Of a DNA stretch of 64,000 bases, positions 17,132-22,315 are shown one piece after another. A model generated the notes under the pieces. That model ran no database searches and had not been told where the DNA came from. It worked only from the letters and a program-made list of their open reading frames with translations. This DNA comes from Stropharia rugosoannulata (taxonomy: Eukaryota; Basidiomycota; Agaricomycetes; Agaricales; Strophariaceae). The stretch covers positions 1,922,001 to 1,986,000 of the forward strand of contig JANCIK010000002.1 of the NCBI GenBank assembly GCA_028532985.1, written 5' to 3'. Each line of letters begins with the position of its first letter. The first letter of the stretch is position 1. A program made the translations under genes and the position numbers.

Positions 17132-18863
17132 TTAGATTATTTCCCCTCTTATGGTGTTCATCACGTACGGAAATTCGGTCATTGTGATATGCTCAGTAAC
17201 CACCCGAACCTCGGGACGTGTAAGGCTTAGCTTTTGGCCTTTGAAGTGCGGGGGTTTAATGTGAGCTGAAGACTGGTTTGTTCCCCCGATTGGAATCTGG
17301 TGCACATAGGCGTCGGCGCAATTGAACTCGAGGAGCCTCATCACTGCCCGGCATGCTGCGATGGAGCTTAAAACTGCTCAGAATTGTAGTCATAATCAGG
17401 GATAGACTTTACTCACGTAATTGTGGCTGCAGGTATCTGACAAATATTTAACCAACACCATATTTCTTTTAATGCGTGACAGCACTTACTGTACCAATGC
17501 TAAGGCAAGGTAGTTAGTACGCTCACTAGTAACGACCACAGGCGGAAGTACTTACACATTCATTGGGGCTGCAATTTTGTATAATAATCTATTCAGTACA
17601 ATCCCGCGTATAAACATAGGTTTTCTCACTATTCAAGTTCAAGACGTTGAGCACCTGAAATTGTTGATTGCTAAATGATCTGCGAAGGTTAAAAACACTC
17701 ACAGCTGGAATACAATTGGTTGAAAATGAAGCCAGAAAGTATACAAGTCCGTCCTGGACAAGCAATTTCCATAAATCCGTTCTGATGGAATGACGAGATA
17801 ACAGAGCGACTGCGGTGAATACTAGGATGACAAAGTCGAAACCCATGGCTAATGGTGATGCATCGTAAATAATAATATGTACATGGATATCTGAAATACT
17901 CACTGTAAAAGAATGTCATGTTGAGAATGGACGGGTCTGTCTGAACCACAGCGCACGAGTTCTGCTCAGAATCCCATTGCGAGACTACAATAAACATAGT
18001 TCTGTAGAGAAGAGCCCAGTGGGCAACGCAAAGCGTCCCGAGGACTATTATAACGGATTTTCGGCGTTCCCATAAGGCGATGCTAGTAGTTCCTGATCAT
18101 CAAAGCACATGCCCGTAAACTTGGTGAATCAACTTACGTCCTGAGCATGAGAGAAGTAGATGCGCATAGGATGGACATATTTCCGGTCCACTGAAGATTC
18201 CAAAGTTAGAATCGTTTCTACGCGAACTCATGCTTGGGCGACTTACTGAATTGAACGTGTTCAGAGCCTGAATAGACATTGTCATTGGGCGGTTGATTGA
18301 AATTTTAAGCATTGTACTTACTCTGCAGTTTATCTAATCAGAGAGTAGTTCAGTGACTGCTGCAAAGACAAATTATCTTATCCAACCTCTGTCGTAACAG
18401 TGAACGAGATCAACCTAGTATCTCGGAGAGTGATGGCATCAGTGGTCACGGAATTATACAAAACCTAAGCGATGGACCTACAGTCCCAGAAAGGCAAGCA
18501 GCATGCAATAACGACAAAGAAAGAAAAAGACTGGGATCGAAAGTGAGCAGTATTGAGATAATGTCCTTAGCAGGAAGACGAGAATAATTACTCTGTAAAA
18601 TGAGTTATTTTCAGTCATCCTGAGTGTAATGCAACATACCAATGGCCATCGAAATGCTCGGCGGCACGTTAACAGAGACCATTCGAAGTGCAGAGTAACC
18701 ATAATCTCCCAGATATATACACCGAAAAGGGTGAAAACAAGTCTATGAAACGCAACTGTTGACAAGATACGAATTACTTATTGTCCGTCTATTACAATGG
18801 ATAGTATGACGAACCCATGTCTTTAGCAACTTCGGCCGCACTTGTCCAATCTTCGCGCTTCAT
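17132..18863 (-). CDS. Agaricomycete multi-pass (7TM-like) membrane protein, unknown function
   Basis: Recognised as a family common in mushroom-forming fungi with no known role. Spliced reading: MKREDWTSAAEVAKDM, VAFHRLVFTLFGVYIWEIMV, EWSLLTCRRAFRWPL, IFFFLCRYCMLLAFLGL, LISFTVTTE, INCR, ALNTFNS, WTGNMSILCASTSLMLRT, SIALWERRKSVIIVLGTLCV, AHWALLYRTMFIVVSQWDSE, then MGFDFVILVFTAVALLSRHS, DLWKLLVQDGLVYFLASFST, VLNVLNLN, and SIAACRAVMRLLEFNCADAY. These give about seven hydrophobic helices. The last ~50 residues are polar and cytosolic-like. Keeping frame needs a one-nucleotide exon at 18592, exons of 12 nt (18322-18333) and 21 nt (18247-18267), and a nested intron at 17437-17557. At least twelve exons in under 1.8 kb, the most fragmented gene here. 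Confidence 0.8.
17437..17557 (-). other. Predicted stwintron (intron within a donor site)
   Basis: Reading minus: exon ends ...ATGAAT, then GT, then a complete internal intron 17489-17555 (donor gtaagt, branch TACTAAC, acceptor gtacag), then taagtg... to acceptor gtcag at 17437. Removing the internal intron creates a fresh donor GTTAAGTG, and removal of that 54-nt external intron joins PMN to IPAATI in frame. A single 121-nt intron with donor GTGTAA gives the same mRNA. Confidence 0.55.
18592..18592 (-). other. Predicted one-nucleotide exon
   Basis: On the minus strand the sequence reads ttttacag-A-gtaatt: a good acceptor, one A, a good donor. Flanking introns would be 18593-18639 (47 nt, donor gtatgt) and 18531-18591 (61 nt, acceptor gatcccag). 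Only inclusion of this A joins FRWPL to FFFLCRYCM in frame, giving WPLIFFFLC. No transcript evidence is available here. Confidence 0.6.
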
Positions 18864-19658: not shown

Positions 19659-22315
19659 CTACGAACACCACACCGCCACGCTACCGTCCGCTGCACTACT
19701 AACAAGCCACGGGTGCTTGTTGCACCATTTAACTTGAAGGACGCCAAGACCACCTGTAACTTCATGTCCTCGCAAAATTTTGAGAGGGACAATGAGAGGA
19801 TCCGTCATGAGGTCGTTATATACTCTTGAGTGGAAGATTTGTATTGAGCCATCATCCGATGACGAGGCGAACAAAGGATACGCCGGGTGGAACTGCAGCG
19901 AACGAATTGCACGCGAGTGGTACCTAAAATGAGATAATGAGAACTATAAAAAGTAACTATGCTTCACAACTGAAGTCGTTACCTCAGGACTTTGTATGGC
20001 TTTTCACTCAGTTCCAAATCAAACCAACAGAGTTTTCGGTCGTAACCCCCAACAATGAGATGGTCTCCGGAAGGATGTACATCCATAGATGATATCCATT
20101 TGATTCCAGGAATTAAGGTTTTCACTAGCTTCTGTTCCGACAGGTTATAAATACGGACATATTGCTGTGTCTGAATCAAGAGTTAAGGCACGTTACAGAT
20201 GACGGATAACAAACACTTACAGCAACAAAGAAGTGCGGCTTTAAAGGATGGAAAAGAACGGATTGTACCGTGCCCTTTATCTTTTTGAAAGGTGACTGAG
20301 AGTGTCTTCGAGTTATTTGATGAATCCACACGCTTGACACACTTCCACCCCCAGTAGCTGTAATGGGCATAATCAGACAATACCGCATTTTGTTAAAAAT
20401 GGCTGGCAACTTACATACACTGGCAAGATAGTCTCCCTTGCGATGCCAGCAGAAGTGGGTAGGTAGCTGGGACAATGCAGGCAAATCAAGAGTCAAGAGA
20501 GGAGTATCAATAGACCATGTTGACGAGGCAGGTGTTATCCATTTGACAAGAGAGGGATTTGCTGGGGCAGGTGGGAGGGTGGCCGGAGCCAAGGCTGACT
20601 GAGTGAGTGAAAGAACAGAAGGATCAACGTGTGGAGGAGTTAAGAAATGAATTTTGTCCTCTCTGAAGAACGTTGTACATCAGTAGACCTAAGTAGGTGT
20701 CAAAGGAATTACACTCACATGCCCACGGCAAAGTAGTTCACATCCGTCCTAGGACACCAAGCCAATGCACCAACTTTGCCTCCAAACTGCCACCTCTTGA
20801 CCTCCCTTCCAACGTTGATTTCCCAAAGGCTTACAACGCCATTTTCGTCACCGCTGATAACCCAACCACCGTCAGGACTGACGCTAATGCATCTTGCCCT
20901 GCTGCTATGATGGAGCTGTATGGACTTATAATTAGGGAAAGGTTTCAAGCTGTTAGGACTTGGAAGCTTGGGTATCAGACTGTTTGGATCAATATTTAAT
21001 TTGACGCGCTGAACACGAGGAGCAAGGTAGAGGTCTAGTTGTCGGAAGAAACGCTCCTTGATGAAACGGTCGTAGGCAGGGACCAGGCGAAGCGACGAGT
21101 ATTTTTGGGGCAGATAATTACGCTCACGATCTTCGGGGTCCAATGCTTCCCATGCTTTACGTTCTTCTTCAGTTGGCAGATATTCTTCAGGAGGATTATA
21201 AGACTCCGCGTTGGTAGGAAGAGGAGGTTTGGGAGCAGGAAGGGGTGGAACAATGGAGGACGACGGCTCGGACCAAATGGCAAATGGCTCGAATTTTGAA
21301 GTAGTTGCTTTCGGTTTAGAAGGAAGGATGCGGCCTTGGCGGATTGCGCGCACAATTTTCATAACCTGTACGGCAGGTTAAATTTGTGACCAAACGACTA
21401 GAAGCGAACAGCCGAACTTTTTGTTTTTCCCATTTACTAGGCACCCAACGGCGTTTGGGTTGAAGCGCGCCAGATAGCGGCATGATCTCCTCTTTCCCCT
21501 TCCCGGTAAACCATTCCGTCGTTGGTTCATAAGGGTCGTATCCTGCATCAGGGTTCTCATTCGTATACAGGCGCCTAATAATATCGAGCTCTTCAGCAGT
21601 GAGGGGTTTATCAGATTGTGTGTTTTTATCGAAGGCAGACGTCCTGGCGATTTGTAAATAAGGGAATGCTAATAAAAAGTTGCCAATAAAGCTTACCATG
21701 CAGAAGCATCATCAACGGTAGCAAGGAATTTATCCAATTCATCTCCACGGGCAGGGCGTAACACCTTTTTACCATTGATATCATAGCCAATGTGCGGTAG
21801 ATCGTCATACCAGTGCATAGGAACATTTCCTACACGATTGGGCGTCTATTTAATGTTGTTAAATGTCGGGAACGTGAAAGGTATAAATCTATACTTACTT
21901 CTTCAGTGGATGAATCGGAGTCATACTCCGGTTCAATCTCAGGATATACGGTTTTGGGTTGTTTCGTGATATCTGAGATAATTGTTTTGGCTTTGGGGAA
22001 GACATGTAGAGAATCATCAGATTCAGCGCCGGACTCAGTTCCATTATCGTCCTCGGTATCCTCAGTGTCTTCTTCCACATCTTCTTCGTCCTCCTCGGCG
22101 TTTTCTTCAAACTCACTGTCCTCACTAGAGCTTTCGTTAACAAGTTCCGGGAATGCATCGACTTCTCCATCGTCCGATGAAGCATCCCCGTCTTCTTCGT
22201 CGCTTAACATTTCTAGTCCACCATTTGACGGGAGTTCAACATGGTGAGTATATTCCTCTTCTTCGTTATGTTTGCGTTTCGTAGACTTCGTCCCCGCAGT
22301 CACCTTGGCTGGCAT
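19659..22315 (-). CDS. ERB1: Ribosome biogenesis protein ERB1 (BOP1)
   Basis: Member of the PeBoW/Nop7-Erb1-Ytm1 complex, needed for 27S pre-rRNA processing and 60S assembly in the nucleolus. The N-terminus starts [20 protein letters not shown] and runs into a long D/E-rich tract. The BOP1NT domain follows: [74 protein letters not shown], and [10 protein letters not shown]. The C-terminal beta-propeller has WD-type blades ([60 protein letters not shown]) and ends [12 protein letters not shown]. About seven introns. Divergent from ARP4 over 294 bp. Length fits the family. Confidence 0.93.

Follow-up and report, generated by a model that had tools for sequence, protein, structure and literature searches.

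A probable single-nucleotide exon in a gene for a putative GPCR-like membrane protein of the mushroom Stropharia rugosoannulata

Position 18592 of the 64,000-nt stretch of Stropharia rugosoannulata DNA analysed here (the window; source assembly of 47.97 Mb in 20 contigs) is very probably a single-nucleotide coding exon, and the two complete canonical introns on either side of it would be removed successively. The exon belongs to a minus-strand gene whose product appears to be a seven-helix, GPCR-like membrane protein. Protein records from other mushrooms suggest an old, shared feature that gene predictors frequently get wrong.

Splice signals, reading frame and gene product

Exon 2 (18640..18755) ends in phase 0 with ..FRWPL (..CCA TTG), as given by the sequence, spliced alignment and in-silico splicing. 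It is followed by a 47-nt intron, GTATGT..TTTTACAG (18593..18639), by the A at 18592, which provides the first base of an Ile codon (A/TC), by a 61-nt phase-1 intron, GTAATT..GATCCCAG (18531..18591), and by exon 4 (18482..18530; TC TTT TTC.., FFFLCRYCMLLAFLG), which encodes transmembrane helix 2. A sequence-only reading had proposed this arrangement, and each of its elements is present: the donor GTATGT at 18639, the acceptor GATCCCAG ending at 18531, and between them a single A enclosed by an acceptor, TTTTACAG, that ends at 18593 and a donor, GTAATT, at 18591, with intron lengths of 47 and 61 nt as claimed. Its account of the frame was likewise confirmed by in-silico splicing: joining 18639 directly to 18531 leads to a stop after 72 aa, while inclusion of the A restores the frame, adds the Ile codon (TTG-A+TC) and yields an intact product of 318 aa. 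The junction that it ascribed to relatives is found in intron-free relatives, which read WPLIFFFLCRYCM (P0003) and WPMIFYFLCRYCM (P0061). The predicted mRNA junction is ..GGCCATTG-A-TCTTTTTC, and the product reads ..FRWPL-I-FFFLCRYCM.. across the site, with the Ile opening transmembrane helix 2. Retention of either intron alone breaks the frame, whereas retention of both keeps it open.

The site thus consists of one base between AG and GT, flanked on each side by a canonical intron of normal length (the donor of intron 2 being weak), and base 18592 is needed for both the frame and the conserved motif. When the stretch was dinucleotide-shuffled 5000 times, an AG-N-GT pattern with both flanking introns of at least 40 nt arose by chance in 96 shuffles and the stricter YAG-N-GTR pattern in 18.

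When a spliced alignment guided by P0003 was allowed exons of any length, the one-base exon emerged unprompted as the best solution. With the A included, in-silico splicing of 15 exons on the minus strand gives the 318-aa protein. Exon 1 starts with the ATG at 18863 (18815..18863), and spliced alignment and in-silico splicing further support exons 5 (18387..18414), 6 (18322..18333, a 12-nt micro-exon encoding INCR), 7 (18247..18267), 8 (18138..18190), 9 (17904..18082), 10 (17703..17848), 11 (17630..17654), 12 (17556..17568, a 13-nt micro-exon), 13 (17490..17499, a 10-nt micro-exon) and 14 (17417..17436). Exon 15 (17132..17366) completes the 318-aa product and includes the stop TAA, located by exon-length arithmetic; a 36-nt GC-donor intron that the spliced alignment placed within it was doubtful and was not accepted. 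The C-terminus resembles the family consensus and the frame is unbroken up to it, so we rejected the possibility of a pseudogene. Residues of the INC. stretch encoded by the 12-nt exon 6 are also missing from the models of several relatives. The gene is adjoined by a WD-repeat gene (about 19661-21362, minus strand), which we take to encode a protein resembling the ribosome-biogenesis factor BOP1/ERB1.

The AlphaFold2 model of P0003 (mean pLDDT 77.7) contains seven helices of at least 20 residues. All 50 PDB matches listed for this model are GPCRs, and all are weak (best E 2.6e-4, TM 0.47/0.54). In P0003 the counterpart of the residue encoded by A/TC is residue 54, where the helix formed by residues 52-75 begins. 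A Pfam search of the product at E 0.001 returned zero families; DUF6533 (PF20151) scored 14.8 bits (E 0.032), below its gathering cut-off of 24.1, and the product was therefore not assigned to it.

Orthologues, paralogues and public gene models

Two protein searches, which listed the best 120 of 187 and the best 120 of 161 matches, gave 166 distinct proteins. Among these listed matches the closest come from other species, with a top identity of 80%, and in a tree of the 166 proteins 157 group with the gene in the window (support 0.979) and 9 with its paralogues. We termed intron-free the 34 proteins whose source tags are solely jgi, lgn or ena and which form long frames on contigs of 1.0-7.5 kb. 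The genes of this family have many introns, and we infer that the intron-free proteins represent transcripts; P0003 lies on the longest contig, of 7.5 kb.

The site is covered by 30 of the 31 intron-free orthologues, and all 30 show normal spacing, with Ile (23), Val (5) or Thr (2) at the position of interest. Genome-derived orthologue models (126 among the listed proteins) behave differently: of the 88 that span the site, 69 contain extra residues. One extra residue occurs in 39 models and 2 to 34 occur in 30, while 19 are normal and in the other 38 the exon is skipped, garbled or absent; these counts include the reassignment by eye of P0145 to the normal class (18 by script) and of P0013, with 18 extra residues, out of the one-residue class (40 by script). 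Paralogue proteins have normal spacing in 9 of 9 cases (3 intron-free, 6 genome models). Extra residues are commoner in orthologue models than in intron-free orthologues (69/88 versus 0/30, Fisher p = 2e-15) and than in paralogue models (69/88 versus 0/6, Fisher p = 2e-4), both p-values being optimistic through relatedness.

The inserted residues themselves point to mispredicted splicing. All 39 one-residue insertions start with V, followed by I (20), L (10), F (5), T (2), V (1) or P (1), which is explained if a gene predictor moves the donor four bases inside GTANGT and thereby adds GTAN plus TC (or CC). Among the longer insertions, 8 of 30 start with G (e.g. P0043, P0054, P0064), as would be produced by a retained intron 2 behind a one-base G exon (GGT..); the others start otherwise, mostly with V. 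Nearly identical pairs of a genome model and an intron-free protein show the same discrepancy in Rhodonia placenta (WPLVLFFFL versus WPLIFFFL, 177/179 residues identical), Armillaria borealis (WPLVIFFFL versus WPLIFFFL, 335/347) and Hebeloma cylindrosporum (WPLVNFFFFF versus WPLVFFFF, 208/220). For Rhodonia, the protein letters suggest that the A of the Ile codon is present in neither flank of the model and should therefore come from inside the apparent intron.

The extra-residue anomaly was found in Agaricales, Polyporales, Boletales, Jaapiales (one model) and Hymenochaetales. Models from Thelephora (3/3) and from Gloeophyllales (2/2, Heliocybe and Neolentinus) have normal spacing, and some close pairs are normal on both sides (Thelephora P0129/P0128, 345/358; P0032/P0017; P0053/P0020). 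Normal models and normal-normal pairs indicate that the one-base structure is either absent or correctly solved there. One example species per order was looked up; the orders of the remaining genera with the anomaly, and the placement of Heliocybe in Gloeophyllales, are as we presume them to be. A one-nucleotide exon is likely common to several orders of Agaricomycetes, to judge from these protein models. A scan of prokaryote genome contigs and viral contigs for orthologue DNA returned pattern matches, none of which was confirmed, and the unspliced 94-aa frame, used as a protein query aimed at unspliced metagenome frames, gave no match.

Three paralogues in the same genome, two on contig 8 and one on contig 7, each align with one phase-0 intron of 50-56 nt exactly at the site, which argues that the position of intron 1 is old. 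No counterpart of intron 2 is seen in any of the three, and on these alignments the single A together with intron 2 is an addition specific to this gene relative to its paralogues. The contig-7 paralogue (L009, around 297700, minus strand) has an apparent GC donor, GCGAGT..TGTAGCAG, at this position, and the boundary in the second contig-8 paralogue is less certain because it reads KWPRTFYF across the junction. A remoter match on contig 5 reads RLPAIVYFLSRYY and has no intron there.

Alternative structures at the site

We enumerated un-nested structures around the site, allowing GT or GC as donor, AG as acceptor and intron lengths of 35-160 nt. This gave 41 in-frame structures (20 with a single intron, 20 with two introns and one unspliced), and only the one-base exon restored the motif WPL-x-FFFLCRYC; the one-nucleotide exon first proposed by the sequence-only reading is thus supported as the single one of these 41 that fits both the family motif and its spacing. 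An exon of 13 nt (18592-18580, followed by the donor GTCTTC) also keeps the frame and was rejected, its product WPLSNYSLFFFL being four residues overlong. We rejected by reasoning a single non-canonical intron displaced by one base (GT-CA or TA-AG): it would leave a G and hence a Val, whereas 25 of 30 intron-free relatives have Ile or Thr.

Splice sites were scored against a reference set of 41 introns: this gene contributed 12, the two paralogues on contig 8 contributed 11 and 13, and the contig-7 paralogue contributed 5 of its 11 aligned introns. The set leaves out the two introns at the site and the doubtful last one in this gene, as well as the GC-donor intron and five doubtful last introns (up to 92 nt) in the contig-7 paralogue. 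Reference introns are 47-83 nt long. The donor of intron 1, GTATGT, scores at the median of the reference donors, and that of intron 2, GTAATT, lacks G at +5 and is weak; it stays inside the reference range, where 3 of 41 donors score as low. When the 33 intron-free proteins that contain the region (all except P0144) were aligned to the DNA without splice-site weights, 30 picked the one-base exon, which outscored the best structure lacking it by 0-2 points (a margin of 0 for 6 of the 30). As the protein-guided alignment was not decisive, we relied on splice-site and length statistics and on the relatives.

The other three proteins (P0002, P0004 and P0106) picked a donor 4 nt downstream of GTATGT, GTTGCA at 18635, which defines a single intron of 105 nt (18635-18531; GTAT/GTTGCA) and predicts the junction ..GGCCATTG-GTAT-TCTTTTTC and the protein WPLVFFFFLCRYCM, with one extra residue (WPLVFFFFL). 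This structure is in frame, saves one intron and scores nearly equally when splice sites are ignored, and the protein letters of 39 of the 126 orthologue models suit the same kind of solution. The sequence-only reading had overlooked this second in-frame option, as well as the open frame of the unspliced stretch. Against this, its donor (-7.98 bits) falls under all 41 reference donors, its length exceeds the reference maximum of 83 nt, and the extra residue occurs in none of the 30 intron-free orthologues, including the near-identical proteins of Rhodonia, Armillaria and Hebeloma. We therefore regard it as very unlikely.

Less likely again is that the region is left unspliced, always or as an alternative isoform, so that 36 residues are added before helix 2. 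The 109 nt from 18531 to 18639 plus TC are indeed open and free of stops, and the whole protein stays in frame. Yet intron 1 has a good donor and acceptors and the three paralogues align with an intron there, none of the 30 intron-free orthologues has such an insertion, and retention of just one of the two introns would break the frame. A sequencing or assembly error, with one more exon-edge base in the true genome and one intron of some 109 nt, is the least probable explanation: the sequence does rest on one assembly, but the same one-base problem is implied by the models of numerous other genomes across several orders, and an intron of 109 nt would exceed every one of the 41 reference introns in length.

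Mechanism, origin and related systems

Fungi favour short introns that are recognised as units. We propose that the splicing machinery recognises each of the two short introns at the site as a whole (intron definition) and removes them in succession. Either may leave first, since both are complete on their own, and whichever does so, the A would pass to one neighbour, giving ..TTGA/gtaatt or ..ttttacag/ATC. As the A joins an ordinary exon after the first splice, the spliceosome would never bind a one-base exon from both sides. We infer that the one-base exon is actually and constitutively spliced; the order of splicing, the conservation at DNA level and the origin of the structure are equally predictions.

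The sequence-only reading had added that nested twin-intron splicing would produce the same mRNA. This holds for two complete introns spliced in either order and fails for the usual [D1,2] form, which removes 110 nt where 108 are needed. A [D1,2] reading fits formally (G/gtatgt..acagag/TAATT, 18590-18640) because the exon A and the G after it form another AG. By arithmetic, such a stwintron (G at 18640, inner intron 18639-18591, outer intron G+TAATT..CCCAG) breaks the frame, and it was rejected. Known [D1,2] stwintrons resemble the mushroom site in having two introns in one insertion, consecutive splicing and a GG start; they differ in that the outer donor forms only after removal of the inner intron (PMC5639578), whereas at the mushroom site each intron is complete in itself and one coding base is left between the two.

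Two origins can be envisaged: a second intron may have come to sit one base downstream of the old phase-0 intron, or a boundary base may have been lost and the loss rescued by AG-A-GT inside a long intron, as Nelson and Syed proposed for CYP621A (PMC12940212). Introns 1 and 2 show no mutual similarity of the kind that tandem duplication would leave (local score 7.0, a value reached in 270 of 500 shuffles). We consider it probable that the one-nucleotide exon is ancestral and conserved across Agaricomycetes, with signs of it in Agaricales, Polyporales, Boletales, Jaapiales and Hymenochaetales, that its base is A or G depending on the species, that Thelephorales and Gloeophyllales lost it or never had it, that it was born when an intron landed one base from an older one after the split from the paralogues, and that it is mis-annotated in most public models of the gene.

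The claim that single-nucleotide exons are extremely rare, for which the sequence-only reading cited plant APC11 alone, needs amending: the APC11 case exists (PMC4674806), and plant VPS55 (PMC8831610) and Fusarium CYP621A (PMC12940212) have been reported as well. One-nucleotide exons of APC11 and VPS55 are described across land plants (PMC8831610). The CYP621A authors present their case as the second of its kind and the first from a fungal gene, VPS55 going unmentioned in the sections consulted (PMC12940212). One-base exons between group II introns of mitochondria are a separate matter (PMC12308204).

As in the mushroom gene, the constitutive exon of Arabidopsis APC11 is a single A between AG and GT that is essential for the frame and was missed by annotation; it differs in being a plant exon with 422 nt of flanking intronic sequence and proof from cDNA and mutants (PMC4674806), whereas the mushroom exon is a predicted one. 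VPS55 shares a 1-nt microexon in a gene for a protein with transmembrane helices, absence from reference annotations and, in flowering plants, a paralogue without the one-nucleotide exon, and its exon is widely conserved, as is probable for that of the mushrooms; it differs in occurring in land plants, in its RNA-seq and RT-PCR support and in that some lineages have transcripts with and without the exon (PMC8831610). The Fusarium CYP621A exon also lies in a nuclear fungal gene, as AG-base-GT within what looks like one long intron (139 nt in F. graminearum), and was noticed since the exons failed to join in frame; it is found in an ascomycete genus, as the central base of a Gly codon, and is supported by SRA reads (PMC12940212). 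The mushroom exon, by comparison, is read from the DNA of a basidiomycete, has its A at the first codon position and probably extends to several orders. Within the open-licence PMC literature we found no prior report of this case, and the nuclear cases found there amount to two plant genes and one Fusarium P450.

One-nucleotide exons probe the lower limit of exon size that the spliceosome can define, and indicate that intron-by-intron recognition tolerates a coding segment of one base. If the structure is shared by several mushroom orders, with paralogues keeping the older intron alone, it would reveal how such exons originate and persist, and if true it would account for a recurring error in public annotations of this gene.
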